Shown one piece after another: positions 30,729 through 62,789 of a DNA stretch of 64,000 bases (position 1 is its first letter; the number at the start of each line of letters is the position of its first letter). Under the pieces are notes generated by a model. That model made no database searches. It was not told the DNA's origin and was given only the letters and a program-made list of their open reading frames with translations. The stretch spans positions 4,650,001-4,714,000 of the forward strand of contig OY751489.1 of NCBI GenBank assembly GCA_963565915.1, given 5' to 3'. This stretch comes from Entoloma clypeatum. Lineage: Eukaryota; Basidiomycota; Agaricomycetes; Agaricales; Entolomataceae. Made by a program: the position numbers and the translations under genes.

Positions 30729-31690
30729 ATGTCCGCTGAGAACTCACCCCTCGCCGCTCTTTGTGCTGAAAGGGAGCACCAGAAGAAGGTCACCGAAGAG
30801 TTGGAGAGGAAGCTGCAGGAGGCAGAGGAGCGCGCGGAGGTGAAAAGGGCAGCGAAAGAGCAGAGACGAGCAGAGAGGAAGGCAGAGAAAGCGAAGGCGA
30901 AGGAACCGGTTGCGGGTGCAGATGCAGATGCAGATGCAGCGAATGCAGAGGTGAAGAAGGTCCAGCTGCAGGGGGTTTTCAAGGATATGCCTGCGAGTTA
31001 TGAGCAGGGGAAGGAGGATTGCACCTCCTGCTTGAAAGCGGGGGACATGTGTTTTTGGCCATTGGAGTGAGTCTTTTCTATTTCTTTATACGCTTCATTA
31101 TTAACTTGTTCTTTAGGAATGACAATGCTTCGTCGTGCTGGCGGTGCCAGCGTTTAAAACAAAGCTGCAGAACGGGAGCGGAAGCGGAGTTGGAGGTGAA
31201 GCGGAGGATGACCAAGGCGGTGAGGGTCGGAAAGGCTAAGGTGGCAGGTGGTGCGATGAAGAACACGAAGGCAGGATCGTCCAAGGGAGAGGGGACCATG
31301 GAGGGATGGATAGCCGCAGCGTCGGAGGAGCCGGAGGGGTTTGGTCCGCCGGAGGTGGTCATAGGCACGGAGGTGGTGAGAGGGCTTAGGAGCATGATAA
31401 GGGAGATGCGGCTGATAAAGGCAGAGTTGAAGGAACTGCAGGAAATCAAGGAGCTTCTGACAGTTATCGTGTGGAGGGAGGATTTGGAGGCTTCGGAGGA
31501 GGGATCCGACAAGGATGAGGATGCGGAGGAGTATGATAGGGTATTGGAGGAGTTGGGAAAGGAGGTAGAAGAAGAAGAAAAAGAAGAAGAAACGAAGAAG
31601 TGGAAGCGGATGGAGGAAGCGGATGCGGAATCCGGATCGGAGTGGAACAAGGAGACAGAGGGGGTATCTAACAAAAAACAGCGAAAGTAG
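30729..31690 (+). CDS. Gypsy B antisense accessory gene: coiled coil plus Zn2Cys6-like cluster
   Basis: Two exons, 30729-31066 and 31117-31690, joined across a 50-nt intron (GTGAGT to TTTAG) to give 303 codons without a stop. Residues 15-70 are a charged helix of Ala/Glu/Lys/Arg (KKVTEELERKLQEAEERAEV). The Cys cluster follows: CTSCLKAGDMC, 11 residues, CWRCQRLKQSC, that is CX2CX6C-X11-CX2CX6C, close to fungal Zn2Cys6 DNA-binding clusters. The intron falls between the halves. After it come a basic segment (KRRMTKAVRVGKAK) and a long acidic Glu-rich helical tail. It is convergent with pol (stop at 31736, 45 bp away) and starts about 130 bp from the 3' LTR. An equivalent gene lies in C. The role is unknown; nucleic-acid binding is an inference. 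Confidence 0.78.
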
Positions 31691-31735
31691 TTTTTTTGTT
31701 AGTATAAAATATTAATAGATTTTCTTTTCTTCTTG

Positions 31736-34700
31736 TTACAAGTGCGATAAGGGGCCTGGCTTAGTTGGTTGAGCGGAGTGGAAGTCCGCTACCGTATCCG
31801 CTGTGTGTTCAAGCTCGGATGCGGATAACCAAGAAAACTCTTCACTGGTGTCTTCATAACCTAACCAGCGGACGAGGTAAAGGAGTTTGCATTGTCGTCT
31901 TTTATCGATCTTTGAGTTGATGATTTCCACAATTTTGTATTCGGTTTCTCCTTTGATCTCGAGCGGAGGCGGGGGAGATTGTATCCGATTTGGAATCTCG
32001 TTAGGAGTTGCTGGTTCGAGCATGGATATGTGGAAGACGGGGTGTATAGCATGCATAGTGTCGGGTAGACATAGTATAAAGGAGTGCATGCTGGGTTGGG
32101 CTATAATTTCAAATGGGCCAGCATATTTGTCAGATAACTTTTGGGTGGGTCATGTGGTGCGGAAGAACTTGGCTTTAACAAAGACTTCTTGTCTGATGCG
32201 GAGCGGAGGAGGCGGAGAACGTCGGACGTCCGCAGGGCCTTGATAACGTTGTTGTGCCTCTGCGACAGCAGTCTTTAGTTCTTGATGTAATTCATCTAAG
32301 TCGATGATGTATTGTCGAGCTTTATCAGATGCTAGATCACGTTCTGGATGGAGTGTAATGTCGGGATGATAACCTTTGTTGGCGAAGAATGGTGATACAC
32401 CAGTAGTGGCACTTGGAGTGTTGTTGTAAGTGAACTCCGCAAGCGGAAGCAAAGCGGACCAGTTGTCTTGCTGGTAGTTGCAGAAGATGCGGAGGTATTG
32501 TTCGAGTGTTTGGTTGGTGCATTCGGTTTGACCATCGCCTTCAGGGTGATATCCAGAAGTGAAGTGAAGTCTCATGTTGAGGGCTTTTGCAAGAGAGCGG
32601 AAAAAGCGGGAGACGAATTCAGGTCCGCGATCGGATGTGACATTTTGTGGAACTCCGTGCTTGGAAAAGACGTGAAGCACAAAAAGGTTTGCTAGGTCTT
32701 CGGATGTGCAATTAATGGTGGTAGGAATGAAGATGCCTTGTTTAGTGAGGCGGTCTACAATGACCAAAATCGCATCGGAGCCAGCGGATGTCAGAAGGGG
32801 TTCAATGAAGTCCATGGAAATAGAATGCCAGGGACATTCAGGAATAGGGAGTTGTTTAAGCAGACCGTAGGGTTTATGACGTTGGGGTTTGGCGCGCATA
32901 CAAGTGGTACATGACTTGCAATACTTTTTGACGAAGTCACGCATTCCAGGCCAAGTGTATTCTCATTGGATAAGACTAATAGTCTTATTCTGACCAGGGT
33001 GTCCAGCGAGGATATGGTCGTGCTTATTGCGGAGGATGCGGAGACAGAGGTCGGATGAGTCGGGAACATAGATACATCCATTGTGGAGTAGATAACCTGC
33101 TTCATTCACGATCCAGCATGGATTAGGATTGTCGAGGAAAGAGGTGTAAATGGGATCGGTCGGAAGAGGATGTCGGAGCGGAGCTGATCTGTATCCATGA
33201 TGATTGTGGCACGGAGGACGGGTGTATATAACTCTGTTGCGTGAAGTGAAGTGGTGAGCTGTTCTTGTGTGAAGATGGGTTTGAAGTTGCTTGGATTGAT
33301 GGACAAATAGTCGCTATTTCCCTCTTTAGGGTAGACGTCCCATCATCTACTTAAAAGATCGGGCTTCGTACCTAAACAGCCAGGGCGGAAGCGGATGATG
33401 AGATTGAACTGGCAGAGGTATTCGGACCAATGAGCTTGTCGACGTGATAAAATCTTGGTAGTAGAAAAGTACTCAAGATTTTTGTGGTCCATTATGACAT
33501 TGATCGGAGCAGCGGAGCCTTCAAGGTAGTGACGCCAAACCTTGAATGCATCGTGGATCGCTAATAGTTCTTTGTCGTGGGTGTCATAGTTTAACTTGGG
33601 AGGTGTAAAGGTGCGGGAGTGGAAAGCGACCGGATGGATTTCGTCGTCAGAGGTGCGGATGAAGAGGATCGCACCCAAAGCGTAGTTGGAGGCATCGGTT
33701 TCGACAATAATAGGGCTGTCGGGAATCCAATGCGTAAGAACAGGTGCTGTGGTAAAGGCTTTCTTCAAGGTGTTGAAAGATTCGCGAGCGGAGTCGGAGA
33801 AGTGCCATTGTGTGTTTTTGCAGGTGAGTTGAGTGAGCGGAACGGTGATTTCGGAGTAGTAAGGAATGAATCGACGATAAAAATTGGCAAAACCTAAGAA
33901 AGATTGAATATCTTTGACCTTCCTTGGTTCAGGCCAATCTTGAATAATTTTGACTTTCTTATCCGACATGTGGAGGCCTGTCGGAGAGAGGATAAAGCCA
34001 AGGTATTCAACAGTATCCATAGAAAACTTGCATTTGTCTGCGCGCACGTATAAGCCATGTTGTCGGAGATGTCGGAGGACTTCGCGGACATGCTTCCGAT
34101 GCTCGGAGGGAGAGTCGGAGTAGATGAGGATGTCGTCGAGATATATGGTAACATACTTATCGAGCAGGTCATGGAAGATGTCGTTCATGAAGCATTGAAA
34201 AACAGCTGGGGAGTTGGTGAGTCCAAATGGCATGACAAGCCATTCAAAAGACCCATAGCGCATGCGGAAGGCGGTTTTCCATTCATCTCCTTCTGCTATG
34301 CAGACGAGGTGATAGGCGTGTCAGAGGTCAAGAGCCGTATAAACACTGGCTTTTCCAGTGGTCTGGAGAAGGTTGGATATGAGCGGAAGCGGATATCGGT
34401 CCTTCTTTGAGATTTTGTTAAGACCACGGAAAGCGACGCAAAGATGAAGGGAGCCATCCTTTTTACGAACGAAAAGGATGGGAGCACCGTGCAGAGAGGA
34501 AGAGGGTCGGATGAATCCAATGGTGAGGTGTTCGTCAATGAATTCACAGAGGGCATTGAGTTCGGTTTGTGAAAGGGAGTAGATCAGACCGAACGGAGGA
34601 GCGGAACCCTCTTCAAGTTCAATCTTGAGGTCGTAGGGACGGTGTGGTGGAAGAGTGTCTGCTTGTCCTTTACTGAAGACGTCAGCATAGTCATGGTATT

Positions 34701-35400
34701 CCTCGGGTATGTTTGTCAAGTCAGGGGTGTCGGAAGCAGATGCGGAGTGAGCGGAAACGGAGGGAGTCGAAAGGTGAAGTCAAAAGGATTGTGTACCAGG
34801 CAATTTGCATGCCCTCATAAATGCGGCTGCGTTAATGAGTGAAATCTGCGGAGGTACGATCGGAGGTTCCGGAGGAGGAAGCATAGCTGTCCTACCTTGG
34901 GAGGAGGTCGATGTCGATGTCGGAAACGGCTCTTTTTACATCTGTGGACGGAAAGTGATACTGCCCAATACCCAGTCAATCATAGGATTGTGGCGGGTGA
35001 GCCAGTTGTATCCAAGAACCACGGAAGAAGCGGAGTCGAGCGGAGTAACATAAAAATCCTGTTCAAAAGATTCACCTGAAGGAAAACATATAGGTATTGT
35101 TACAACTTGAGTGATAAACACGTTAGAAGAACCATCGAAAAGCTTTAGTTCTAAAGGCGGAATAGTGGAGGTCGGAAGATCATAAGTGGAGGAAAAGTTA
35201 TTGTCAATAAAACAGTGGGTAGATCCTGAATCAATAAGTGCTGGGACAGAATCTGAAGAGAAAAAAGAAGATGAGATATTGATACGTAAAGAGTTCGGAT
35301 TGGAGAGAGCGGACACGTTAAGTCGGATGGGAGCGGAGGCACGCAGAGAGTCAACGCAGTCCTCAGACCATGCTTCATGAGGACCACTGCCTATTCTTTT
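31736..35400 (-). pseudogene. Gypsy B pol: protease to chromodomain
   Basis: Minus-strand reading. Protease ALIDSGSTHCFIDNNF at about 35240 with VVLGYNWL. RT from [18 protein letters not shown], stop after YTALDL near 34325 (Arg expected), YLDDILIYSD active site at about 34140. RNase H VETDASNYALGAIL and HDKELLAIHDAFKVWRHYLE. Stops and shifts lie near 33343-32950. Integrase: CKSCTTCMRAK, SMDFIEPL, TSDRGPEFVSRFF and GYHPEGDGQTECTNQTLE, then a stop after FFRTT near 32150. Chromodomain TEYKIVEIINSKIDKRRQCK, LVRWLGYEDTSEEFSW, end at 31736. Catalytic residues survive but at least four in-frame stops make it a pseudogene. Several stops are at positions where C has CGA. Confidence 0.92.
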
Positions 35401-36504
35401 GACTCAATCTCCTTACCTTTTTCCTTGGCTTGAGTGCTGACTTGGGCGGCTTTCCCTTTAGCCTTGGAAGCGGAGGAGGTGGACTTGGGACAGTCCTTGA
35501 CAGCGTGTCCGACGCTACTGCAGAATAAGCAAAGGTTATTATCGAAACGACGTTTGCGTTCTTGATATGTCAGTTTGCCGTCTTTGCCTAATTTACTGGA
35601 GAGGTCGGGTTTCGGAGCGGATGTGGAAGCGGAAGCGGTAGCAGGAGCGGAGGGTTTGGTTGATGATGTTTGTGCAGTGGATTGGTTCGGAGCGGATTGT
35701 TTCTTGTCGGACTTGGGAGTGGGTTTATCGGTTCTGGATTTCTCTCGTTGACGTTCCCAGTAGCGAGCATCAATAGTATGAGCCGCGGATCATAGGTCTG
35801 GTAAAGACTTGATCTTGGGTTGTTGGGAGAGGATGTCCTTGATCCGATCCAGAAGTCCGACGTAGTAGTGGTGTCGGAGGGAGTTTTCATCCCAGTCAGT
35901 CTTGGTAGCAAGACATTGGAATTCAACATTGTACTTCAATATCTTTTGATTTTCCTTCATCCGTAGGTTGTCCAACTGTTCTTCGGCTTCGCCCTGAGGG
36001 TCAATGGTACCAAACTCGGAGTGGAGAAGTCGGATGAACTCGGGGAAAGAACCCCGCCAATTGGGTTCATCATTGTCAAGAATGAAGGGTTCAAAAAATT
36101 TGAGTGCTGTGCCTCGGAAGTAAGACATGGCAAAGTTGACTTTGGAATGTTCTGAGTCGAAGTTGTCGTTGTTGGAGAAGTAAAGTTTGCATTGTAAAAT
36201 AAATGCGGAGAGTTTGCGCAGATCAGATCCGTCGAAGGTATCCGGTTCGTTGGCATACGACTTTTTCTTCTTTGTGTCACGATGTTTCAACTCTTTGGTC
36301 ATGAGCAGAATGGCTTCAGCTAGATTGGGTTCCTGATCTGGATTGGAATCGGAGTCCTCCAAATCTCCATGTAAACTACCATCGGAAGGAGGAGGAGATC
36401 CTCCTGGAGGTCCGCCAAATAAGCCAGAATTTAGAGGTGCGGAAGGTTCCGTTGGTGGGTTTAGTGGAGGACTGGCGGGAAGTGGTGGGAGCTGAGAGTC
36501 GGAA
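35401..36504 (-). pseudogene. Gypsy B gag, 3' part
   Basis: Minus-strand gag: a Pro-rich N-terminal segment (36500-36365), the gag core (SYANEPDTFDGSDLRKLSAF, VNFAMSYFRGTALKFFEP), a stop after KIKSLPDL near 35790, then a Ser/Lys/Ala-rich linker and a CCHC knuckle CLFCSSVGHAVKDC at about 35530-35490. The N-terminal exon of this frame lies at 40560-40723, beyond LINE-gamma. Confidence 0.85.
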
Positions 36505-36527
36505 GAAGGCGGAGGAACAAAGGGCAG

Positions 36528-36605
36528 TCTGGCGTAATGGTCATGCTGTCTGCATCTTAGGCTTGATCACCTAGGGAAAGGTCGCCGGTTCGAACCCGGC
36601 TGAAC
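36528..36605 (+). promoter_or_regulatory. tRNA-like Pol III head of LINE-gamma (A box, B box, T arm)
   Basis: TGGCGTAATGG (about 36530-36540) fits an A box. GGTTCGAACCC (about 36590-36600) fits a B box and is the loop side of a perfect T arm (GCCGG/CCGGC around TTCGAAC). The acceptor and anticodon stems do not pair well, so it is tRNA-derived rather than a tRNA gene. Confidence 0.6.
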
Positions 36606-37404
36606 TCAACACCTTGTAAGTCTACCGTGGGAACGTCTCCTAAGGTAGCATAAAGTTGAGGGTGCACGAAGTAGTCATGTGTCATTACCTAATACATCAC
36701 ATGATGGAACGTGTTGCCGCAACACCCCAAGTAGCCTCCGCCCCATGGGGTGTATGGTGATGCCCGTAAAGGGACCGAACAACTGGATAGGGGATGATAA
36801 GAGGGGGAATCCGGAAAAACAAACCGAATATGGGATATGCCCCCATCAGGTCACCCCCCCCTGCATAAATTGAACCTCCATTGGGGTAACTCCCTTGTTA
36901 GAGGGGTTCCACTCTCGCTTGCAGGCCGCATCACTGGGGGGGCTCGTGGTGTATCCATGTGCTGGTTCCCTGGGTATGTACTAGGCTGAGAGGTGCTATG
37001 TAGGTCGTTAGTCATCTGCCTGTGGGCCCACATCACTGGGCTTTAACTCCCTGGGTATGTCAAAGGGTCTTAACAACTCCGGATCAGTGGCTTGTCCCTG
37101 AGTGATCCATCCGGTTGGGCGATGGCAAGACAGAGATCCTGGACAGTGTGGGGATCCGCGCCAGATGGCATCAGCGAACCACCTGCCAGGGAACGGGAAA
37201 CTGGGGCGGACGTGGTCTTCGGGCCGAAACCTGCCGAGTGTAAAAGACTCCTCCAGCGGGCCGTAGCAGACAGGGACAGTCCCTCTGATCTGGCTCGAGA
37301 GCACTATATCCTCTGTCGGTTCTCCTGATGTAGTAATAAGTCAGGTGAGAATCTAAGTTGATTCCGGGGTGGGGCTGTAAAAAGCCGGGGCAAAAACCCC
37401 ATAA
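36606..37404 (+). other. LINE-gamma 5' non-coding region
   Basis: No coding frame supported. The phrase ccctgggtatgt occurs twice (about 36967 and 37049). Origin unknown; it may be a chimeric 5' part acquired by template switching. Confidence 0.5.
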
Positions 37405-40400
37405 TACCAGGCTCCTCCCGCAAGGGGGGGGCCTAAACTTCGCTTCCACAAGTCCTTCCAGTCTGCCGAAGCACGACCTGTCGACCCCGACAGGCTGCGC
37501 AGTACTCTAGAACCTCAGCCCAAAAGGGCTTGGGTTCCATTCACTTCGCAAGAGGTCCTCCAGGCCCTGGCCGGTTGTTCGAGCCGGTCAGCCCCAGGTC
37601 CTGACCATCTTACGTGGACTCACCTCAAGTGCCTAACCGCACATAAACAAATCTTGGAGCTGTTCGTCTGGACCCTGAACGCCTGCCTCTCGGCGGGGTT
37701 TTGGCCTGACGCCTTCAAAATCTCAACGACCGTCATTATTCCTAAACCAAATAAGCCGGCGTACGACGTTCCCAAAGCATTTCGACCCATCGTGCTTCTA
37801 AACACCCTGGGCAAACTCTTTGAGAAAGCTATCGCTAACAGACTCCAGTGGGAACTAGCCCGCCATGGTCTACTGCACCCAGGTCAATTCGGGGGGGTTC
37901 GTCAGAACTCCACCGAAGACGCCGGACAATTCCTTACCCACCTCATACGTGCAGGATGGGCGAGGAAACTCAAGACAAGCGTTGTCGCCATTGACTTGGC
38001 CCAATACTTTCCCTCCCTTAACCACTCGGTTATATCGCTCATACTAGATAGGATGGGGTTCCCCGACACTGTCGTGGATTTCTTCTCAAATTACCTAGTA
38101 GGGAGACAGACTCAATACGCCTGGGAGGACGACCTCTCAGACCTCTTCTCTGTGGACATTGGCGTAGGTCAGGGCTCTGCCCTCTCCCCTGTGCTATCGT
38201 CCATCTACCTCGCCCCGCTGATGTACGCATTCCAAGCCGAACAACCGCAGGCTAGCCTCATTTCCTACGTCGACGACGGGACTATCATAGTCCAATCTGA
38301 GACGTGGAAGGAAAACCTCGCCAAATTAAAAAAGGCATACAAATGTCTGTTTGAGCTGACCACAGCCCTCGGGCTTGTCCTTGAACACTCTAAATCGGAG
38401 GCGTTCCATTTTTCCAGGAAGAATGGCGACGATAACCCCCCGGTTGACCTCGGGTTTGCGCCCTTCACCGGCGACTCCCCTCTCGTCCCCAAGACCTTCT
38501 GGAGGTACTTGGGCTTCTTCTTCGACCGCAAGCTACTCTTTACTGAGCACGCGAAGCGGTATGCCACTAAGGCCTTCTCAGCAACGGGAGCCTTACTATC
38601 CCTGGGAAACTCAGTCCGTGGACTCACTCCCAAACACAAACGCACCCTGTACCGATCGTGTATTTTGCCGATCGCGCTATACGGTGCTAATCTTTGGAAC
38701 TTCGACGGCGCCCGCAACAAGGGTGTCGTCAAGTCTATCTCCAAAGTCCAAAGACGCGCAGCGCTATGGATCTTGGGAGCCTTCCGTACCACCCCCACAG
38801 GGGCGGTCGAAACACTTGCTGGCCTGCCTCCGGTGCACTTGCACCTCAAGAAGCTCTCCTGCAGAAACCGTGTCCGCATGCACTCCCTTGCACCCAGACA
38901 CATGACCGTCATGGTATGCGACGAGGATGACCCCTCCAAGCGTCCGTGGTACTCCCCGGAGTTTATGTACAACCTTAAATCCCCCCTCGTCGATATCTGG
39001 GCATACCGTGCAAATGTGACTGTCCCCCTATCGCCCTTTAATAACTACAACGAACCAGGAAAACGCGTCCTCGACCGATTCCCTGAACGCGTAATTCACG
39101 ACATTACCCTTATCCGCGGCAAAACCGCTAAGGATCGTGCCGAAGCCAGAAAGGCGCGCCTCATCACCCTTAACAAGGTGTTTGACGCCAACATCTGCTC
39201 CAATAAAGCCGCCGTCATTGTCACTGACGCGGCAGTCCCCTCCCTTTCGTCGGGCCACCAAGCTGTTGCAGCCTGGGAAACCTGGCACAAAGGGCACTCC
39301 ATCGACAAAGACTGGGCGGCCGGCGGCCTCGCAGTCTCTGATGACACTGAAACCTTAGCTATCGGACATGGGTTCTCGAACCTGGTCAGTCTGCTAGGGG
39401 GTCTCTCTCAACTGGAAGAAATCCATATTTTCACCGACTCTGTCAACGCCATTCGGCGCGCCACAGACCCGGATCTCCACTCCTCGCAGGCAACTGCGCT
39501 CGCTATCATCAGTAACCTGATTCCTTGGTTTGAGGAACCCGGTCTGAATCCCAAGGTCATCTTTCACCATGTCCCCGATTCTTCGGACCATGGATTCGAA
39601 CCCCACCGTGCAGTGCACGACTTCGCCTCCTCGATTCGCATTGAGTGTGGTGAGTCGGCCTCCAGATCCCTTGACTTCAACACGAAGCAATTCACGGACG
39701 ACATGCTCGGTGACTGGGACAATCTGTACCAGTCCCCCAAGTATGTTGGCCGACACTATCAATTCCCGAGATCGTGCGTCAGACGCCAGGACCACGCTCG
39801 GGCCAAACGTATGAAGCCGTCCCATCTCAAGGGCGGCACATGGCTCAAGGATGTGGGTCACTCCCAATCCCTCACGGCACAAATGGTCCGCGGCCTCACC
39901 AGCCACGCCCCAATTGGCCACTATAGACATAGGTTCAACATCGGTGACAAGGTTGAACAATGCGACTGTGGTCTGGGGTCCGTTGAGGACTTCGCCCACG
40001 TTTTCTACAAATGTCTGCACCACCCCACCAGGCCACCAGACATGCCCACCTTCTCGAGGAACTCCCCCACCTGGGACGTCTTCGGGAAATTTATCATGGA
40101 TAACCCAGGGGCATTTGCCTTCCGGGATTGTCCAAAGCCCAACACAACCGTCGGCGGTAGTCGCGTGGTAGCGCGCTGGGTTCAAAGGGGTGCAGCCCCC
40201 TCTGGCAAGCGAACGCGATCGAAGGATAAGAACCGCACAGGCGCTTCTTTGGGGGGCAGGGCGCAGACACCCCCCAGCGCCGCTAACGGCCAACCTCACA
40301 AGGTTGGAGTGCTCTTGTACCGCGCGGCCGAATACTCGGGTGCGCATACTAACGCGTTTGTCTATAACAAACTCCCCCGTCCTGGCGCGAGGACTCAACA

Positions 40401-40443: not shown

Positions 40444-40559
40444 GTCCTCGGACCGATGTAGTTTACTCTATGTCAAGCGGACTGTACCCTTAGTATACCG
40501 CTATACAAATTGTTGAGGAAAAAAAAAAAAAAAAAAAAAAAAAAGAAGGCGGAGGAACA

Positions 40560-40723
40560 GATGGTCCAGGGGTAGGAGCAGATGATGATGCTGTGGCTCC
40601 TCGAGGGGTAATGGTTACATTGCGTGTTCCTCAAAGAAAAGCAGAGTGTGGTGTGGATGATGAACGTTCTGCTGCTGCACGAGCAGTCCTAGTTGTTCGT
40701 ACTGTATTACGGGTTTGAGACAT
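40560..40723 (-). pseudogene. Gypsy B gag, N-terminal part
   Basis: Starts at the ATG at 40723 (MSQTRNTVRTTRTARAAAE). It has one stop after SAFL (TGA) and continues Pro/Ser-rich to the LINE-gamma insertion. It rejoins the Pro-rich segment at 36500. Confidence 0.75.
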
Positions 40724-40761
40724 GTGGGTAGAGGTTGTTGGGTAAATCAAAGAATGGTGGT

Positions 40762-40772
40762 AGTTCAAATAT
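40762..40772 (-). other. Self-complementary primer binding site of gypsy B
   Basis: Minus strand ATATTTGAACT, two bases after the 5' LTR, is complementary to AGTTCAAATAT at 41022-41012 in the LTR, 33 nt after the TATA start (41055). Confidence 0.7.
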
Positions 40773-40774
40773 AC

Positions 40775-41291
40775 TGTCACGTAGCGTTTTTCTCAACATC
40801 GGAAAATGTCGGACAAGTCGGAGCGGAGTAGCGGAGGAGTGGATGCGATAAGTGCGACGTTGGCAGAAAGGACCTGGCTTCAACTTGTGCGTTGCGCCCC
40901 GCTCTTTGATGTGGTCCTCGATTTCGGATTGGCGGATGTCGGATGAGCGGAGGTGACGGAGAGAATGCTCAAAAGCAAGTAGAGACGAATGCGAATGAGG
41001 TGTAACATATGATATTTGAACTGAGGTTCTACGACAGGTTTGTACACTATTTATAGTAGACTAGAATGATCAGCATTACTATAAGTGATGTGCAGATATC
41101 GGAGTTGACCATCAGAACATTCGGAGTACGGAGAGTAGCAAATGAAAAGTGAACAACATATGTCTACTTGTAAGTATGGTTGAGATGTTACGTAGTAGAA
41201 GTATAATCAGAATGTTGTTGGAGCGGATGTTGGAGCGGATGAATCGTCGGAGTTGTCGGATAAGTCGGATGTGAATCGTATGGTTATGACA
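40775..41291 (-). repeat. 5' LTR of gypsy B with promoter
   Basis: 517-bp LTR; TATAAATA (41055-41048, minus) and predicted start AGTTCAAATAT at 41022. Confidence 0.93.
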
Positions 41292-43083: not shown

Positions 43084-43240
43084 TGGAGAGGTGGGAGCGG
43101 TCAGGCAGGCTCAGAGCAAGGCTCATTGAGGGATGGCAAAGATGGAGGATCAATAGCAGATGGTGTCTACAACAGGCTGTCTTGTGTCTACATGTCTATG
43201 TCATGTGACCATGTGGAGTCAGGCCCAAGGCCCTACTCCA
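43084..43240. repeat. Left LTR of element G
   Basis: 157 bp, TGGAGAGGTGGG to GCCCTACTCCA; ends are inverted (TGGAG/CTCCA). Confidence 0.85.
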
Positions 43241-43339
43241 GGTGGCCCCTTTCTATATGGCGATGTCCTCATCGCCTCTAGAAATGCTGTAAGAGACTCT
43301 AAACCCTCATGTAAAACCCTCAAGGTATAATTGAGACTT

Positions 43340-47994: not shown

Positions 47995-47996
47995 TC

Positions 47997-50268: not shown

Positions 50269-50279
50269 ACTAAAGCGAT

Positions 50280-50948: not shown

Positions 50949-51661
50949 TGTTAAGTAGGTGAAACGTCGGAGCTTCGTCGGAGTCCGTCGGAGGTCGGAC
51001 GAAGGACTGAGACTGGAGCGGAACTCCGGAAATGTGGAGGAACGATGAAGGGAAGGGACGTGGCTTCAACATATGTGTTGCGCCGCCGTTTGTTGGATAA
51101 GGTGTCCCAATTTCAGGAGGTCGGAGGAGAGGTCGGAGATGCGGGGGTTCTCGGAAAGATCTCGGTGAGAGACACGTTGACGTGGAAATGGTCCCACGAC
51201 GTCGGAGTTGTGACTCGGACACAGTACTGAGCTCGTCGAAGGGTAACGATGGAGGAAGAGCAGTAGATGAGGATGTCGTCGGTGTATTGTACCACAGCGA
51301 GGATCTCTGGCATGAACAGGGAGTAGAGGAGTGAACTTTGTTGATATTCGAACTGAGGAACTACAGGTATGGTACGAGCTTAAATACCTAAGTGAGATTA
51401 CTTTACGGAGATGGTCGGAGTAGGTCCGGAGTTGTGGCGTAAGTTGCCAGCGACTGTAACGAACATCGGAGATGTCGGTCAACAGACCATGCGGAAAAGG
51501 CGATGCATAAGTAAACGGGAATATGAATATGAAATGCATAAAGGCATGGAGTTATGAATATGAAATGCACAATGGCAACGTGCGGAGATGTGGAGGTAAC
51601 GGATGTCCGGAATGTCGGAGGATGATCGGAGTGGATCGGAGATTCGGAGACGGATATAACA
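50949..51661 (-). mobile_element. Solo C-type LTR in gypsy A
   Basis: 713 bp matching 61121-61814, TSD gagtt (50944-50948, 51662-51666). Joining the flanks restores the gypsy A reading GELSETFRIV. Confidence 0.94.
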
Positions 51662-52376
51662 GAGTTGTCAGAGACATTTCGCATAGTTTGCGAGATAAAA
51701 GGGGACCCCCTTGCTGAGTTACCAAAGTTGAACCCAAAACCACCGGGGTTTGCGCCCAAGGGCCGCTACACCCAGGAAAGGATGGAGCACATGGACAGTA
51801 TACACGACCATGATTTTCTCTGAAAAGAAGAAATGAAACTAGTACATCATTTATTGAGTGAACAGAATCAAGCATTTGCATGGGATGATTCGGAGCATGG
51901 TAGCTTTCGCGAGGATTCCTTTCCTCCGGTACAGATACCCGTGGTACCGCACACTCTGTGGGTACTAAGAAATATTCCTATTCCACCTGGGATACATGAT
52001 GAAGTGTGTAAGATAATAAGGATGAAGATGGCCGTGGGCATGTATGAACCGTCAAATTCCTCATATAGATCCTGGTGGTTCTGTGTATTGAAAAAGGATG
52101 GCAAGAGTCTCTGTATTGTCCACAGTTTAGAACCATTGAACCAAGTCACTATAGCACATTCGGGCCTTTCCCCGGCAATGGAGGAATTAGCCCACCATTT
52201 TGCGGGACGTGCTTGTGGTGGAATGTTCAATCTCTATGTGGGATATGACGAGTGAAAGTTAGCGGTCCAGTCTCGCGACTTGACTACATTTCAGATGCCA
52301 TTTGGTGCTCAAAGATTGGTTACTTTACCAATGGGTTGGACAAATTCGGTACCAATCTTTCACGATGTTACACATA

Positions 52377-53994: not shown

Positions 53995-54982
53995 TATATT
54001 GCAGGACAAAATACCAGATGTTACTATTCCCTACATCGACAATGTGGCGGTTCGCGGCCCATCTACGCGATACAAGTTGCCTGATGGCAGATATGAAACT
54101 ATAGAAGAAAATCCAGGCATTAGGCGATTTGTATGGGAACATGTACAGAATGTGAATAGAGTGTTACAGAGAATGTGGTATAGTGGAGGAACATTCTCTG
54201 GGTATAAGTCACTAGTATGCGCGAGCGAGATAGTGGTAGTTGGCCATTGTTGCACGTATGAAGGACGGAGACCCGAGACAGATAGGTTCGGAGTTATAAG
54301 CCGCTGGGGACCTTGCAAAGATATACATGATGTGCAGTTGTTCCTTGGAATGGCTGGCACTTGTCGAAACTTGATTAGAGACTTCGTGAAGAAGGCGGAA
54401 CCTCTAGTCAAGTTGACGCGAAGTCGTGAACTCTTTGTCTGGGGATCTGAACAGGAGGAGGCCATGCAAGGCATAAAGGATGCTTTAGCGGCATCCCCCG
54501 CGATCAAGCCAATAGATTATCATGGTGGAGGTGCAGTGGTCCTTTGCATAGACTCCTCGTGGTGGGCAGTTGGCTTCTATATCTGTCAAGAGGATGAGGG
54601 TGATTCTAAGAAGAGGACATACGCAAAGTTCGCATCAATAACACTAAACGAGCTTGAGGCGAGATATTAGCAACCAAAGCGAGAATTGTATGGTTTATTT
54701 CGCGCATTGAAGGAAGCGAAGTTTTGGCTCTTGGGCTGTCGGAACCTGGTTATAGAGACCGATGTGAAGTATATCAAGGGGATGCTCAATAATCCTGGTC
54801 TTGGACCAAACACTGCTATAAATTGGTGGATTGATTACATTTTGATGTTCCACTTCACACTAAGGCATGTGCCAGGCAAGACCTTTGCACCCGGTGGTCT
54901 ATCGAGGCGAGAAGCGCAACTGGGGGATGAAACCTACCATATCGAGGAGGACTGGGTGGATGAACCAGATGGACCGCCACAG

Positions 54983-55369
54983 TGAAATGAAGGAAGTGAG
55001 TCTGGGGATGAGCGCGAGCAATATCTCTATCACACACACAAACACCAAACACAACAACGAAGACCGAACAAGTCTCGTGATGCGTACTTCTCAATTGATA
55101 TAGTTCGGGGTGATGAGTGGGATCACTCAGGATGCGACTCTTCCAAACAACAATTGAATAACTCGTTTAGCGATGGCTCAATAAGTCTTGAACAAGACTT
55201 AGAGATAGTTCTCAACAGATAATGAACCGAGGTTTGTGATTTCCGAACCAACGAGACTTCACAAACACGATCTCGACCGATAGATAACACGATTTGACAA
55301 TTGACAAGTTCTCGAACACACAAAACACAATTGCAACTGACTTCCGATGCAAACCAAACAATCTCGAGG
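54983..55369 (-). repeat. Solo A-type LTR, right half (inversion-split)
   Basis: On the minus strand it follows the LTR from AAGATTGTTTGGTTTGC to the end TTTCA at 54983. It lacks a short stretch near 55275. At 55361-55369 it passes into LINE sequence through the shared string atctcgagg. Confidence 0.87.
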
Positions 55370-55621
55370 GGTGCAAGGAAAATTCATGAGGGCGAGCTTG
55401 GATAATTTGAACGGGGAGTTGTGTGAGGGCGACCAGGCAAATCCTCCATCTGGTCGCTCCATCATGTCTCTGATCATGGCATGTGAGTCTTCAAGAGTGT
55501 CTGCAACTGCTAGGACCATGGAGTCATCCACAAATCCCAGGGACGTTTTGTGTTTGTGAAGGGCCACTTGGATGAGTGGGGCATTGTAGAAGGCATATAG
55601 GAGCATGGAGAGGGGGCAGCC
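55370..55621 (-). pseudogene. LINE-alpha RT middle piece
   Basis: Minus-strand RT after the F insertion: CPLSMLLYAFYNAPLIQVAL, then SLGFVDDSMVLAVADTLEDS (RT active site FVDD), and HNSPFKLSKLALMNFP. It continues the frame ending NGTTQG at 57514 and is continued by 42298 on the plus strand. Confidence 0.88.
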
Positions 55622-56079
55622 TGTTATGGTTGACAAACCCATGCAATGCTTAGGCAGAGAGGCTTAAGTAGCAAAGGCGGATACCAAGGTGATTGCTAGA
55701 TCTGGGGAATACATGCAATGTATGTACCCTATATATACTAGAAGGTCGAGTCATCTAGATGACTCTAGAGCGGTTCCGGTCTGACTCCAGAAGCGGACCC
55801 GGAGTAGGTGTCTATGGTAACTGCTGCGGCGTGAGTCAGTGTATCTAAGTATAGTCCAATAAGTAACATGATGTCAAGGATGTGTGAGAGTAACCATCTA
55901 GATATGGTAACGATGACCATACTGTAGTGAGTAAGCGGAGGCCGGGGCCCGAATGATGTAAAAGTGAATAGTAAGCATGAAACCAATAGATAAGATGAAA
56001 CTGGCCATTAATCAGATAAGGCCTCTATGTCTTGTATCTTGTCTGAGCGATCAATGCCATGGATAGCGAATCCATAACA
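55622..56079 (-). repeat. 3' LTR of element F
   Basis: 458 bp; in the sense strand starts TGTTATGGATTC and ends CATAACA. Contains the 16-bp palindrome agtcatctagatgact at 55750-55765. Confidence 0.94.
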
Positions 56080-57042
56080 TTACCCCCTTCTCAAAGGTTT
56101 TCGTCCCAAAAACAATCTTGAAAAGCCAATCTTGATGTATCATTTTGCAACCAAGGTTTTCAAAAATTGCGCTTGAGATCGTTCGTCGATTTCTTCTTCC
56201 AACTCCGTAGTGTCTCTCCATTGTTGTTCATCTTCCTCCTCCCATGCTCTCGTTGTTCGTCTTCATCCTCCAATCTCCATCGTCGTCCAACTCTGTCGTT
56301 GTTCCTCTTCATCCTCCATCTTCGACCATTGTCGTCTTCATCTTCCAACTCTGTCGTTCCTCTCCTTCGTTGGTTCTCCCATCCTCTACCCCCTTCTCAA
56401 GATTTGGCGTCCCGACAAATATACATCTCCCCCAGGTGTTGAGAGTCCCGAAGAGATCCAAAGGCTCCGTTGGAGCGAAAAAAAATTCTGTGTTTTGCAC
56501 TGTTGTGACTTGTGGTGTGTCCTGCTGACCAATCTCTGGTGTGATGGTGCAATGCGCCAAGCGCCTTACTTGCTGACATGTCTTGGACCAATGCTCCCTG
56601 AGCCTGACATGGCCTCCAAGAGAAAATGATATGCTGTCCAATACTGATGGACCCTGATGCGTGATGTGATGGTGTGATGCGCTGTTGCGTCTGTGATCCG
56701 TTGCTGATGTGATGATGCAATGCGCCAAGCGCCTTACTTGCTGATGTGTCTTGGACCAATGCTCCCTGAGCCTGACATGGCCTCCACAGGGTAATCCATT
56801 CCTGAACTGAGCAACGCGCTCCAGGTTCCTTCCTGCAGTCGTCGATGACCTGCACAGGGTAGTCCGTCCCTGAACCGAGCAACACGCTCAAGGTTCTCTT
56901 CGTCCAGCTGGTCATTGCTGGCCCTGACTCCAAGCGTTGAGCTTGAGTCGTCCTGCCCTGGAAAGGTCATCCAAGGGCTGAGCATCGTGCGTGCGTTCTT
57001 GACCTCGGTAGGTAGCTCGTTCCTCTCCGAGTAAGCCTGGTG
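56080..57042 (-). other. Element F interior: pyrimidine/purine block and direct repeats
   Basis: 56165-56400 is CT-rich on the plus strand (sense GA-rich) with imperfect repeats. A segment of about 80 bp at 56540-56620 recurs at 56711-56790 (aatgcgccaagcgccttac). A second pair lies at about 56788 and 56854 (gagcaacrcgct). No gene supported. Confidence 0.7.
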
Positions 57043-57054
57043 AGATCTAGCAAT
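57043..57054 (-). other. Self-complementary primer binding site of element F
   Basis: Minus strand ATTGCTAGATCT, one base after the 5' LTR, complements AGATCTAGCAAT at 57137-57126, 34 nt after the TATA start (57171). Confidence 0.72.
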
Positions 57055-57055
57055 A

Positions 57056-57513
57056 TGTTATGGTTGACAAACCCATGCAATGCTTAGGCAGAGAGGCTTA
57101 AGTAGCAAAGGCGGATACCAAGGTGATTGCTAGATCTGGGGAATACATGCAATGTATGTACCCTATATATACTAGAAGGTCGAGTCATCTAGATGACTCT
57201 AGAGCGGTTCCGGTCTGACTCCAGAAGCGGACCCGGAGTAGGTGTCTATGGTAACTGCTGCGGCGTGAGTCAGTGTATCTAAGTATAGTCCAATAAGTAA
57301 CATGATGTCAAGGATGTGTGAGAGTAACCATCTAGATATGGTAACGATGACCATACTGTAGTGAGTAAGCGGAGGCCGGGGCCCGAATGATGTAAAAGTG
57401 AATAGTAAGCATGAAACCAATAGATAAGATGAAACTGGCCATTAATCAGATAAGGCCTCTATGTCTTGTATCTTGTCTGAGCGATCAATGCCATGGATAG
57501 CGAATCCATAACA
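57056..57513 (-). repeat. 5' LTR of element F with promoter
   Basis: 458 bp; TATATATA (57171-57164, minus), start AGATCTAGCAAT at 57137. Confidence 0.94.
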
Positions 57514-58748
57514 CAGCCTTGTGTTGTGCCATTGACTATGTCGATAGGCACAGAGGTGTAGTTGTCAAACTTGAGGCACGTTTTTCTGCCAGACAGCATG
57601 CAGTCAGTGAGTCTGGTGTAGCATGTTGGTACTCCGTGAGCTTTCATGTTGTGGATGAGTTGGTTTTTGCCCATGTTCGGGAAGGCGCCTTGAACATAGA
57701 GGAAGAGGGCTGCTGCTACCTTGCCAGCTCTCCAGGCATCCTTGACTTTGTGCATGAGTGAGTGCATGGCGTCGGTCATACAGTGACTGGGTCTGCTGCC
57801 GAATTGGCCTGGGGGCAGCATATGATGTCATTCTGCAAGATGTGAGAGGTCAGCTGCAATGAGGGTAGACAGGAGCTTGCCGATGGTATCCAGGAGGCCA
57901 ATTGGTCGGTATGCCTTAGCGACATTGTAGGCTGGTTTATCAGCTTTGCATAGTACCAGAGTGGTTGAGGTTAGCCAGCGTTCATGGTAGACGTTGAGGT
58001 CGAGGACAGCCCTGTAGATGTAGAAGAGATGATCTATGAGGGTGTCTACGCAGTGGATGCTGCTGGGGCCAGGGGCCTTGTATGGTTTTAGTGTCTTGAT
58101 GGCTGCGCGGATGCGGCGGCGGGTGAAGAAGTGGATGCTGGGGAGAGGGGGTGGATGGGAAGGGTTTGTTGGGGCTAGTGAGTGATCAGGCAGAGGGGGG
58201 AAGAAAGAGGCAGCCAGGGGTTGGGCTTTCGCGTTGTGGTCTGGGCATCAGGGGAGGAGTTGTCCGAGGTCTTGAGGGTTGGGATGCAGGCACAGGATCG
58301 GTCAGACAGGGTGTCAGTGATGTATTTGTTTGCCAGGTAAATCTGCTGGGCGGAGATGTTCTCGAGCTAGTCTGTCCAGTGAAATGTGGCCGCGTCGTCA
58401 ATTGCCTTGGCGAATTCATGGGCGATCTTCTTGTGTTCCTCAATGGCAGGATGGTCACAGATGTGTCTGAAGCGGTGGGCCTGGTAGCTGAGTTTGTTTT
58501 TCCACTTCTTGAGGTCTGTGAGGTCCTTGGTCCACCAGCGTTTTGAGAAGGGACAAGGTTTCTTCAACGGGGCATGGTTTGCAATGGTGTCCTGTATTAT
58601 TAGTGTAAGATCATCCATCTTCTTATTGAATTTGGCTTCAGAGGTGATGAGGGAGGCGGGGGAGTCGTGTTCGAGGCGGGCCTTCAGTGCAGCATTGAAT
58701 GCATCGTAGTCTATCAGCCTAAAGTTGCGAGAGGGTGTGGAGGAGGAT
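57514..58748 (-). pseudogene. LINE-alpha, N-terminal RT part
   Basis: Minus-strand reading from the mariner-2 junction: SSSTPSRNFRLIDYDAFNAA (end of the endonuclease/linker), APLKKPCPFSKRWWTKDLTD, a stop near 58367, RT start with frameshifts, then LPPGQFGSRPSHCMTDAMHS, VAAALFLYVQGAFPNMGKNQ (RT block A, Val in place of the catalytic Asp) and VPIDIVNGTTQG at F. The endonuclease domain proper is missing, so the element is 5'-truncated at about 58748. Confidence 0.85.
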
Positions 58749-60194
58749 CTAATAATAAATAAAACAAAATAATCAATCATTGGGACAGTTTTTTGACCCT
58801 TGGTCATTTTGGCAATATCCCTGCTATAGCAAGCCAAATCACAGTGAGTTTGAGTGTGGGAGTAATAAACAAAATCATGTGACCTTGTTTACATCAGTTT
58901 GACATGTTGAAATTATTTCAACCCTTCTCTTCCTCTTCCACCATCATATGAGGCCCACATCTTCTACCAAGCACTCCTCTGTGGTTTCCCTTCTTCAAGA
59001 AGGTTATACTTTGCGTCAAATTGAGGAAAAAACTGGTGTGGGCAAGTCTACCATTGGTAGAATCAAGAAGGAGGTTGATGGGGACAAGGAAAACAGCAGA
59101 GGGGGCCGTCCTTCCAAGCTTACTCCTCGTGACAAGCAATCAATTATTCAACAAATCACTACAGGAAAGCTTGATAATGCTGTTCAAGCTACCCACTACA
59201 TCAACAACATCCTCCCCAATCCTGTCACACCTCAAACAGTCAGAAATGCACTCAAATCTGATGACTTTCGCTCTGTTGTCAAGCAGAAACGTCCTCTGCT
59301 TAAAAAGGCCCATCGACTGGAGCGTCTCAGATTTGCCAGGTACCATGAATTGGACAGTTGAGGATTGGAAGAGGGTCTTGTGGTCAGATGAGACAAAAAT
59401 TGACAGGATTGGATCAGATGGGAGGGTGTATACTTGGAAAAAAAGGGGGGAACCACTTTCTGACAGAACCACTACTCCTACAGTCAAGCATGGAGGGGGG
59501 AATAACCTTATGGTATGGGGGTGCATGGGCTGGAATGGGGTGGGGGTGCTTACAGAGGTTCAGGGGATCATGAATGCAGACCAATACTGCCAAATTTTGG
59601 ATGAAGGAGTGGTGGAAAGCTTTGAAAAGTTGGAGATGGCAGAGGGGGAAAGGATATTTCAGCAGGACAATGACCCCAAACATGCCTCCAACAAGGCAAC
59701 AAAGTGGTTTGAGGACAACAACATTCAAGTTCTGGTCTGGCCTGCCCAATCCCCTGATCTCAATGCCATTGAACACCTCTGGGTAGAGTTGAAGAAGAAT
59801 TTGAGGAAATATCCAAGTCCACCAAAAGGGGTACATGAGTTGTGGGAGAGGGTTGCAGAAGAGTGGAACAAAATTACACCAGAAGCATGCCAAAGACTTA
59901 TAGAAAGCATGCCTAGAAGGATACAAGCAGTTATCAAGGCAAAAGGGGGTCATACCAAGTACTAATTGTGTAAATAACCAAGGGTCAAAAAACTGTCCCA
60001 ATGATTGATTATTTTGTTTTATTTATTATTCCATCAATATTTGTTCAAACCACATGACCCAGTGCTCAAAAGCAAGCTAAGATGATACAGAATAACATAT
60101 CTTTTTTGCAGAAAATTATTACAAGTGCCTGTTGTGTTATTAGCAATACAGTACAAAACAGCCAAACATTGGGACAGTTTTTTGAGCTACTGTA
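58749..60194 (+). mobile_element. Mariner-2 (Tc1/mariner), left end missing
   Basis: The right terminal repeat ends ...GAGCTACTG at 60194 followed by TA. Inner inverted repeats of about 54 bp lie at 58749-58802 and 59979-60032 (core CATTGGGACAGTTTTTTGAC). The matching outer left end, expected about 190 bp to the left, is replaced by LINE-alpha, so the LINE probably inserted into this element. Confidence 0.85.
58948..59965 (+). pseudogene. Mariner-2 transposase, one frameshift
   Basis: Starts MRPTSSTKHSSVVSLLQE at 58948. Helix-turn-helix (YTLRQIEEKTGVGKSTIGRI), hinge RGGRPSKLTP, second DNA-binding region (NAVQATHYINNILPNPVTPQ). At RFARYHE, near 59347, one extra base shifts the frame; the other frame continues WTVEDWKRVLWSDETKID (first Asp), FQQDNDPKHAS (second Asp), WPAQSPDLNAIEHLW (Glu) and ends SMPRRIQAVIKAKGGHTKY at 59965. 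Length about 339 residues, as usual for the family. Apart from the single base it looks intact. Confidence 0.94.
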
Positions 60195-60700
60195 TGTCTT
60201 GAAAGGTGTCTTGGAATACTTGAGCATTGAAAGGGCCAAGACAGTGTCAAGAACAATGAAATTCTCTTGGAAATCATGAACCCTTGAGAGTCTTGAGAGA
60301 TATCTTGAGAGTCTTGAATGCCTTGAACACCATCTTGAGATCTTGGCAATCCTTCAAGAAACTCCAAGACACTTCAAGAAAAGTTCAAGTAAAGAGACAT
60401 TTTGCTGATGACCATGGGAATACTGCAACTGGCATCGCATGTCCGTTGCGCATCCATATGATTTCTTGGTCACCAACATATTATCTTAACAAGCTCTTCA
60501 AATAGTAGTTACATACAAACCGTCCTCACAGTTTTGAACAAGCATCAGCAAACCCTGATCATGCTGCCCAGCCCTGGACAGCACTGTATAGGGTCATAGC
60601 ACCATAGCATGGGTGCTTTGCTGTGTAGTTCAGGGTTCCTTCTGTGCAGTTCTAGCCAGTCAGGGTCCTTTCTATGCAGTTCTTGCCAGTCAGGGTCCTT
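60195..60700. other. Unassigned region with short repeats
   Basis: No gene. 60275-60390 has several imperfect copies of cttgagagtcttgag. 60641-60670 and 60671-60700 are two near-identical 30-bp tandem units (gcagttctagccagtcaggg type), with a degenerate third unit just before. Confidence 0.6.
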
Positions 60701-60981
60701 TGTCATAACCATGCAATTCATACATCCAACACATCCGACGACTCCGATGTTTTATCCGGTCCGATATCCGATGATTTTCATAATAGTACTTATTGACATC
60801 TCTACTAGTTAACATTCTAATTATGCTGACAAGTAGACATCTTGATGTTGATTTTGCATTTGCTCCTCTCCGTACTCCGATTGCTCTGATGAGTAACTCC
60901 GACATCCACACCTTACCTATAGTAGTTACTGACCCACTTCTGGTTTACTATAAGTAGTATGAATTTTGTCTAGGGCATAAC
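60701..60981 (+). repeat. B-related LTR fragment
   Basis: Begins TGTCATAACC and follows the B LTR (acaagtagacat, ctctccgtactccga) to just past its TATA region (TACTATAAGTAG), then ends near GCATAACA. No TSD seen, so it is a truncated or rearranged LTR. Confidence 0.65.
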
Positions 60982-61120
60982 ACGGGTGCGGTATAAACCA
61001 CAGTTTTCATGTGATGGGTACCACAGGTACAGGTACGGTGTCAAGTTCGACAACCCAAGGCGAAACCACACCCGTACTAGCAGGTATACAGGTTTCTTAC
61101 AGGTATCAGATAGACCACAA
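60982..61120. other. Unassigned 139 bp
   Basis: Contains acgggtgcggtataaacc and, further on, acacccgtactagcaggtata, a weak inverted pair. No gene or clear element. Confidence 0.35.
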
Positions 61121-61814
61121 TGTTAAGTAGGTGAAAAGTCGGAGCTTCGTCGGAGTCCGTCAGAGGTCGGACATAGGACTGAGACCGGAGCGGAACGACA
61201 AAAGGGAGGGACGTGGCTTCAATGTATGTGTTGCGCCGCTGTTTGTTGGATAAGGTGTCCCAATTTCAGGAGGTCGGAGGAGAGGTCGGAGGTGCAGAGG
61301 CTCTCGGAAAGATCTCGGTGAGGGACACGTTGACGTGGAAATGGTCGGACGACGTCGGAGTTGTGACTTGGACACAGTACTGAGCTCGTCGAAGGGTAAC
61401 GATGGAGGAAGAGCAGTAGATGAGGATGTCGTCGGTGTATTGTACCACAGCGAGGATCTCTGGCATGAACAGGGAGTAGAGGAGTGAACTTTGTTGATAT
61501 TCGAACTGAGGAACTACAGGTATGGTACGAGCTTAAATACCTAAGTGAGATTACTTTACGGAGATGGTCGGAGTAGGTCCGGAGTTGTGGCGTAAGTTGC
61601 CAGCGACTGTAACGAACATCGGAGATGTCGGTCAACAGACCATGCGGAAAAGGCGATGCATAAGTAAACGGGAATATGAATATGAAATGCATAAAGGCAT
61701 GGAGTTATGAATATGAAATGCACAATGGCAACGTGCGGAGATGTGGAGGTAACGGATGTCCGGAATGTCGGAGGATGATCGGAGTGGATCGGAGATTCGG
61801 AGACGGATATAACA
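61121..61814 (-). repeat. 3' LTR of chromovirus C
   Basis: 694 bp, homologous to the solo LTR at 50949-51661. In the sense strand it starts TGTTATATCC and ends CTTAACA. Followed on the right by the purine tract (minus AAGAGGGGAATAC). Confidence 0.92.
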
Positions 61815-61933
61815 GTATTCCCCTCTTAGGTCTGACACCCATGGAAGACCGCGAGAAAATAAACAAGGTCATGTGGTCTCGGTTATTTAACGGAGATGAG
61901 CGACCGAAGGGTTTTCTTCCAGTTACCACCAAC

Positions 61934-62789
61934 ATGCCCCAAGACTCAAACACACAACCCGCGCGCTCCAGCGCCAACCTCGACGACTCCGAAAAGGAGC
62001 TCCTGCGCCGTCTGGCGCAGGTACGCAAAGAGAAGGAGGAGGTGGAGGCAAGAAAGAAGGCGGAGGCCGAGAGGAGGGCGAGGGAGGCAGAGGCGAAGAA
62101 GAGGGCAGAGGCGGAGGCGGAGGCGGAGAAGAAGAGGGCGAAGAAGGCGGGGAAACAGAGGGCGGAGAGCGGAGCGGAGGAGTCGGAGGTCCGGGGGGAG
62201 GCGTGTCAGGCCTGTGCGCAGGCGAAGGTGGAATGCAAGTGGGCACTGTGAGTACCCGCTTTTCCATCTTCTTTTTCTTACTGACAGTCTCCTTAGGCAG
62301 GGGAAGGGCACCGCATGCCAGCGGTGTAAAGACGGCAAACGGGTTTGCCTGAAGCCTGGCGAGACGAGGGCGAAGCGGAAATGGGGGAAGACGGAGGAGG
62401 CCCGAGCGGAGGTCGCGGGCCTGAGCGGGGCGAAGAACTGCTGCGGCGCAGGGGTCGTGGAGGAGCTCCGGGAGCTCCGGGAGGAGAAGGAGGAGAAGGA
62501 GGAGCGGTCGGCAAGGGTCGGTTGGGCGCTGCTCCGGCAGCTGCAAATTATGAACAACCACCTCGCCTACCGGAACTTCCTGCTGGAGGCGGCGGCTCCG
62601 GAGTCGGAGATGGAGGATGGAGAAGAGGAAGGAGAGGAAGAGGACGAGGAAAAGGACGAGGGGGAGGTCGAGGGGTTGGCGGACGGGGAGCTTGCGGAAC
62701 TGCAAGTGGAGAAAGAGGAGGCGGAGGGAGAAACGGAGGAAGAGTCGGAGGATGACGGTCCGCCGGCCAAAAAGGCCAAAACCCAGTAG
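61934..62789 (+). CDS. Chromovirus C antisense accessory gene: coiled coil plus Zn2Cys6-like cluster
   Basis: Two exons, 61934-62247 and 62297-62789, across a 49-nt intron (GTGAGT to CCTTAG), 268 residues, no stop. The frame also has an upstream ATG at 61853; 61934 is chosen because the B homologue starts at a similar distance from the LTR. N-terminal charged helix (LRRLAQVRKEKEEVEARKK), then CQACAQAKVEC, 10 residues, CQRCKDGKRVC, that is CX2CX6C-X10-CX2CX6C. The intron splits the cluster at the same place as in B. A Leu/Glu heptad-like stretch (VEELRELREEKEEKEERSAR), then a very acidic tail ending PPAKKAKTQ, a possible nuclear signal. It is convergent with pol (stop 62855, 65 bp away). Confidence 0.8.

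Follow-up and report, generated by a model that had tools for sequence, protein, structure and literature searches.

The window analysed here, a stretch of 64,000 nucleotides (nt) from the basidiomycete Entoloma clypeatum (assembly GCA_963565915.1, contig OY751489.1, positions 4,650,001 to 4,714,000), carries two long terminal repeat (LTR) retrotransposons, elements B and C, which both contain a predicted two-exon gene on the strand opposite to pol, between the pol stop and the 3′ LTR (Table 1). Both are chromoviruses, Ty3/gypsy elements with reverse transcriptase (RT), RNase H, integrase and chromodomain between their LTRs, and their antisense genes would encode proteins with six cysteines (Cys) in a Zn2Cys6-like arrangement. 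Element C, which runs out of the window, is a recent insertion of about 7.3 kb, in which Pfam domains give the order Gag-like frame, protease, RT, RNase H, integrase and chromodomain; its LTRs measure 694 bp, are 98.99% identical, end in TGTT...AACA and are flanked by the 5-bp target-site duplication CACAA. Element B is an older insertion than C, with an LTR pair that is 91% identical including gaps (527 aligned columns, of which 28 are mismatches and 18 gap positions); its DNA similarity to C reaches up to 36254, and other sequence lies between the 5′ LTR and pol. The antisense gene of B is still open despite the diverged LTRs and the broken pol, which chance could explain.

Table 1. Coordinates of the antisense genes and of the elements that carry them (positions in the window).
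Feature	Position	Strand	Details
B antisense gene, exon 1	30729..31066	+	ATG at 30729; charged N-terminal region; first half-cluster CTSCLKAGDMC
B antisense gene, intron	31067..31116	+	50 nt, phase 2, GTGAGT...TTTAG
B antisense gene, exon 2	31117..31690	+	second half-cluster CWRCQRLKQSC; acidic region; basic C-terminus NKKQRK
C antisense gene, exon 1	61934..62247	+	ATG at 61934; charged N-terminal region; first half-cluster CQACAQAKVEC
C antisense gene, intron	62248..62296	+	49 nt, phase 2, GTGAGT...TTAG
C antisense gene, exon 2	62297..62789	+	second half-cluster CQRCKDGKRVC; acidic tail; C-terminus PPAKKAKTQ
TATA-like box TATTTAA	61884..61890	+	50 nt upstream of the C ATG, between LTR and gene
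Element B 3′ LTR	30067..30597	-	ends TGTC...GACA, flank ATCCC; self-comparison, LTR matches across B loci
Element B pol (RT, RNase H, integrase, chromodomain)	31736..36254	-	several broken frames; open reading frames, Pfam
Element B 5′ LTR	40775..41291	-	TGTC...GACA, flank ATCCC; self-comparison
Element C 3′ LTR	61121..61814	-	5′ LTR of the pair beyond the window, at 4717751-4718444 of the window's contig (C8)
Element C pol, 3′ part (integrase, SH3-like, chromodomain)	62855..64000	-	Pfam; extends beyond the window

Gene models obtained by frame-by-frame translation and splice-site search bear out the structure that a first-pass annotation of this DNA had described, namely a two-exon gene at these coordinates in both elements, with an intron of about 50 nt between two half-clusters, a CX2CX6C-X10/11-CX2CX6C pattern, an acidic tail and an end lying 45-65 bp from that of pol. 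The intron indeed divides the six-Cys core in both genes, the spacing being CX2CX6C-X11-CX2CX6C in B and CX2CX6C-X10-CX2CX6C in C, and pol and antisense gene end tail to tail with a gap of 45 bp in B and 65 bp in C. The predicted spliced proteins comprise 303 amino acids (aa) in B and 268 aa in C; their acidic tail is evident from the charge per 50 aa, a coiled coil is plausible from their composition, and a Zn2Cys6-type pattern appeared in none of 200,000 shuffles of either sequence. The C frame is also open under alternative splice choices, and its GTGAGT...TTAG pair was chosen because it keeps the CxWxL that is found after the third Cys in B. In the unspliced frame of both genes a TGA lies over the 5′ splice site and stops translation immediately, so that intron retention would yield a half-cluster protein.

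The position of the gene was then followed through the genome (60 Mb in 20 contigs, including the window), in which exon-wise searches gave at least 142 matches for the B protein and at least 162 for the C protein, after scoring of 130 of 294 and 143 of 293 candidates, respectively. The best 30 loci of each family among the matches listed were studied, 60 in total with the window copies L011 and L041 included; this sample, found through the antisense gene itself, is biased to intact genes. Pol adjoins the gene on the opposite strand in 59 of the 60 loci (the exception being L055), and the LTR of the family lies on the gene's 5′ side in 57 (not in L031, L037 and L040), which is the position, antisense and between pol and 3′ LTR, that characterizes the genes termed aORF-3R. 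An intron model was obtained for 56 loci, and 46 are open from ATG to stop once spliced (25 of 30 in B, 21 of 30 in C). The X10/11 spacing is retained in 42 of these open copies, i.e., in all 25 of B and in 17 of the 21 of C, where the splice model is partly responsible for the failures (L040, L044, L045 and L061). The 25 intact B copies have introns of equal length with equal splice sites, GTGAGT being the donor in every one. Initial C models, made without a preference for GTGAGT, used a different donor in 12 of 29 cases, and in the later models GTGAGT...TAG was preferred wherever the frame stayed open; this pair is usable in 20 of the 21 intact C copies, and the C intron varies from 46 to 55 nt (one mis-modelled at 69) with the frame unbroken. 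The annotation had named homologues lying away from LTR elements and unconserved Cys spacing as grounds for abandoning an element-encoded gene, and neither appeared among the 60 loci of this genome.

Purifying selection acts on the spliced protein in both families. The ratio of nonsynonymous to synonymous divergence (Ka/Ks) had a median of 0.31 in B (range 0.24-0.40; 47 of 300 pairs, with Ks > 0.1) and of 0.26 in C (range 0.13-0.60; 205 of 210 pairs, with the same threshold). The pol tail was compared in 23 B and 8 C copies, 20 and 6 of them without stops; in comparable copies Ka/Ks of pol was 0.31 in B (8 pairs) and 0.32 in C (17 pairs), and that of the antisense gene was 0.31 and 0.23, respectively. 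The antisense gene is conserved like the neighbouring pol. Variable sites common to at least two copies fell most often on third positions of the antisense frame in all four exons; over codon positions 3/2/1 they were distributed as 19/7/6 in exon 1 and 12/11/8 in exon 2 of B, and as 28/13/12 and 53/34/23 in the exons of C. Exon indels were multiples of three in 11 of 13 cases in B and 13 of 14 in C, counted in intact copies only, which favours such an outcome, and C intron indels in 2 of 4. The six Cys columns were invariant in all 25 B copies, and among the 21 C copies three were invariant and three had one exception each. Together with the positions in the 60 loci, these results support the earlier claim of an antisense gene belonging to the element, which is both element-encoded and selected as a protein. 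As a separate observation, the divergence of the introns (medians 0.024 in B and 0.068 in C) was not above synonymous divergence (Ks 0.034 and 0.235); the antisense introns may be constrained, or their composition may be less mutable, perhaps through a low CpG content.

The relationship between the two genes was visible at the level of profiles. BLASTP of the B protein against the C protein found no similarity; profile comparison aligned the two in a single block of 52 columns, at 29% identity, with a probability of 64% and a pairwise E of 6.6e-5, and every one of the six Cys falls within it. Intron phase is equal in both genes, and six residues lead from the split codon to the fourth Cys in each. 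This block, with the equal phase and place of the intron, supports a shared ancestry of the gene, whose coils and tails would have diverged beyond recognition. Searches of viral contigs, each with a pair of short peptide patterns taken from the charged N-terminal region, found no relatives.

Membership in a known family is less direct. Zn2Cys6 proteins follow the pattern CX2CX6CX5-12CX2CX6-8C, and their cluster holds two zinc ions and binds DNA at CGG triplets. The six Cys of both window proteins follow this spacing; against the Pfam profile Zn_clus (PF00172) the B core scored 15.6 bits and the C core 7.5 bits, with a cutoff of 21, and the best stretch spanned half a cluster. With E up to 1, a Pfam scan of the whole proteins detected no Zn_clus, and no other domain scored above its cutoff. 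Since the spacing fits and the profile score falls below cutoff, the proteins are named Zn2Cys6-like and are not filed as members. The first-pass interpretation, a Zn2Cys6-like regulator encoded by the element, thus stands for an element-encoded antisense gene with a predicted intron and the Cys spacing, which is under protein-level selection, and does not stand where it would need a Zn_clus match above cutoff.

Upstream of the gene, the distance from the LTR edge to the ATG, which includes the polypurine tract, is 119 bp in C and 131 bp in B. A TATTTAA lies at -50 or -51 from the ATG in all 21 intact C copies. Judged from these motifs, a promoter of the gene's own beside the LTR would be as likely as one within the LTR.

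The reading that we favour, to which we give a probability of about one half, is that of a nuclear, nucleic-acid-binding accessory protein which would be made from a predicted spliced antisense transcript and would tune the expression of its own element. The two chromovirus families bear an additional gene, their third, on the strand opposite to the others; it starts some 120-130 bp inside the 3′ LTR and is directed towards pol. This gene would be transcribed and spliced, the six Cys would form a compact cluster of the two-zinc type, and the basic C-terminus would bring the protein into the nucleus, where it could bind LTR DNA or RNA of the element. Once bound, it may work much like the accessory regulator HBZ of human T-cell leukemia virus type 1 (HTLV-1) and set the amount of genomic RNA that the element makes or uses. 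As an unspliced transcript would give the half-cluster protein, splicing could serve as a switch, and the antisense RNA could pair alongside with genomic RNA if both strands are made. Such an intron can persist in a retroelement because the genomic RNA contains it in antisense orientation, where it would not be removed by splicing ahead of reverse transcription.

Several results weigh against this proposal. The Zn_clus scores of both cores remain below cutoff, and the matches of the two cores among solved structures were chance-like only. None of the 25 intact B copies has a TATA-like box, and the third-position excess of the antisense frame is weak in exon 2 of B (12/11/8). Apart from the Cys, variable positions made up 6 of 33 in the core and 58 of 270 in the rest of the B protein, and 17 of 32 and 114 of 234 in the C protein. 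The core, Cys aside, is no more conserved than the rest, which is no argument either way on a binding surface; it is unlike the conservation expected of a strongly constrained DNA-binding domain, and our confidence was lowered for this reason.

Other explanations should be considered on the same evidence. The antisense RNA might act instead of the protein, by pairing with genomic RNA at its 3′ end, the resulting double-stranded RNA restraining the element by way of small RNAs; the arrangement permits such pairing wherever both strands are transcribed, and the excerpts of PMC7264820 discuss regulation by antisense RNA in other elements. The Ka/Ks values of 0.26-0.31, the codon-position bias and the near-invariant Cys nevertheless show selection on the protein. 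The RNA may act additionally and is distinctly unlikely to act in its place. It is extremely improbable that the open frame is an artefact of sequence rich in glutamate, lysine and arginine codons, or that the true gene lies on the sense strand. Long sense-strand frames do exist, of 198 aa in B and of 203 and 260 aa in C, and in intact copies they are open (longest stop-to-stop frames of 203-209 aa in B and 187-292 aa in C); the B frame and the 203-aa C frame moreover share the wobble position of the antisense frame in exon 2, where the codon-position test leaves them standing. However, the sense products of B and C are unlike each other (best BLASTP E 3.3), the 203-aa C frame in exon 1 and the 260-aa frame in both exons place their wobble at antisense positions 1 or 2, which are less variable than position 3, and only the spliced antisense frame accounts for the two exons, the six Cys and the similarity between B and C. 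We give next to no credence to a host zinc-cluster gene, recently captured or simply lying beside the elements. Zn2Cys6 proteins are abundant in fungi, and this genome has 18 Zn_clus matches, but none of these 18 places coincides with the B or C matches listed, the divergence between B and C is too great for a recent capture, and the gene occupies the same place in 59 of the 60 loci.

Another alternative, which we consider unlikely, is an accessory factor on the RNA side, such as a nucleocapsid-like helper or a factor for packaging or RNA export, instead of a regulator of transcription. It draws on a word, CTCCG(A/C), that is dispersed through the LTR and coding region of B (30067-36254) and C (61121-64000 together with L069) and lies nearly always on the sense strand: with the antisense gene excluded, CTCCG occurs 80 times on the sense and 8 times on the opposite strand in C, and 46 and 2 times in B. 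CTCCGA occurs 4 times in the LTRs of B and 11 times in those of C, as compared with 0.2 and 0.6 in shuffles. In gag-pol of C, CTCCG ranks first among 414 five-mers tested, with 65 occurrences against 26.5 under synonymous-codon shuffling, and four control chromovirus loci have 2-8 per 3 kb. Such density beyond synonymous-codon shuffles, with such a strand bias, fits single-stranded RNA better than DNA. In the pol frames of B, however, CTCCG comes second (17 vs. 6.1) and is outranked by TCCGC (20 vs. 7.1; 111 five-mers, synonymous-codon shuffles), and a weak match to the CCHC zinc knuckle (17.3 bits, cutoff 20.8) is already present in the Gag of C. The CpGs of the motif are not better kept than other LTR CpGs either (p 0.27 over 25 LTRs of C, 0.86 over 28 LTRs of B). 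The copia element E (24375-29623), which lacks an antisense gene, moreover has a dispersed word of its own, AGTACC, found 12 times in the E frame where 1.4 are expected; over E and the related element A (11736-17549) it occurs 15 and 14 times, against Markov estimates of 2.2 and 2.4. This suggests that LTR element families of this genome each bear an element-wide sequence tag, and since E has its word without the gene, dispersed words do not depend on a zinc-cluster protein. Words with CGG are frequent in the LTRs of both B and C; a reading of these as a cluster of CGG sites in the LTR was rejected, given that the word runs through the whole element on one strand, that E has its own, and that motif CpGs are not better kept. 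A circuit in which the spliced antisense zinc-cluster protein would read an element-wide mark in LTRs and coding region, CTCCGA on the sense strand and TCGGAG on the other, by which each family would tag its own nucleic acid, with splicing of the cluster as the switch, is in our opinion a long shot, and the link between word and regulator is only a hypothesis. We are equally doubtful that the protein steers the pre-integration complex in the nucleus or directs where the element inserts; the basic C-terminus and the neighbouring chromodomain integrase would suit a nuclear step, but the chromodomain is itself a targeting device.

The gene of B and C has counterparts by position in other elements. 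In the ascomycete Botrytis cinerea, brtn of Boty-like retrotransposons was reportedly treated by Zhao et al. (Virology, 2011). According to the excerpts of PMC7264820, brtn is an additional antisense gene between pol and 3′ LTR, as in B and C; it is likened to our genes by its described position and orientation. The gag-pol of Boty ends in a chromodomain (PMC4227169). Antisense genes in this place, without known function, are described for plant elements as well as for Boty, and the plant aORF-3R genes of Ty3/gypsy elements (Grande gene23, RIRE2, Retand ORF4/TRP28 and PvRetro13) share the position and orientation of the B and C genes; they occur in most family copies and are conserved like other retrotransposon proteins, much as the B and C genes are conserved like pol, and the Grande product is a nuclear protein (PMC7264820, in excerpt). 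The antisense TRP28 protein of Retand has predicted DNA binding, and Retand belongs to a non-chromovirus lineage, whereas B and C are chromoviruses (PMC11963269, in excerpt). The plant genes have TRP28 or Smc domains where those of B and C have a six-Cys core with an intron inside, and the main text of PMC11963269 makes no mention of an intron or of zinc. HBZ of HTLV-1 is likewise encoded antisense in a retroelement, and its mRNAs are spliced or unspliced (PMC6237760, in excerpt), to which the intron of B and C and the stop at its 5′ splice site may be compared. It is a basic leucine zipper (bZIP) protein according to the same excerpt and B and C have a Cys cluster; the likeness is one of working, no homology is claimed, and the Pfam scan (E up to 1) matched neither protein to a bZIP family. 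Fungal Zn2Cys6 factors share the spacing with B and C, which differ by a profile score below cutoff and by an intron within the cluster in both families.

Our literature search, from which subscription journals were largely absent, found no zinc-cluster antisense gene in a fungal chromovirus and no split zinc cluster of this kind. The excerpted text on Laccaria transposable elements (PMC3411680) does not mention antisense, open reading frames or zinc, that on Tcn1-like chromoviruses (PMC2864245) does not mention antisense, an additional or third open reading frame, or zinc, and that on co-option of fungal transposable elements (PMC10799480) does not mention Zn2Cys6. Antisense accessory genes of LTR elements are thus already known, and what appears new here is a six-Cys core split by an intron in chromoviruses. 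Accessory regulators are usually regarded as a trait of retroviruses; the presence of a selected antisense gene with an intron in two chromovirus families that have diverged from each other suggests that retrotransposons of simple appearance can bring along regulators of their own, and elements B and C may encode one. The unsolved role of antisense accessory genes becomes testable, the intron being a clean marker, as a spliced read would prove antisense expression.

The control chromoviruses (L070-L073) were picked for variety, 4 of the 150 chromodomain matches listed, themselves 150 of 2044 candidates. In the 1.6 kb that follow pol, none of them shows an open antisense frame with CX2CX6C; L073 carries a copia-like insertion that starts about 0.4 kb beyond pol. 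L070, L071 and L073 have a third open frame directly after pol in the sense direction, and L072 is without a long frame there. The near-identical pol tails of L070 and L073 place them in one family. The sense third frame of L071 ends in a Cys-rich stretch. A translated stretch, CILCPNLGTVC, occurs in the window at 846 (-) and 5938 (-) and also in L070, so that the L070 element has a repeat in common with the window. At 50949-51662 the window contains another C LTR copy, of 95% identity; self-comparison found no C internal sequence beside it, and it is possibly a solo LTR.

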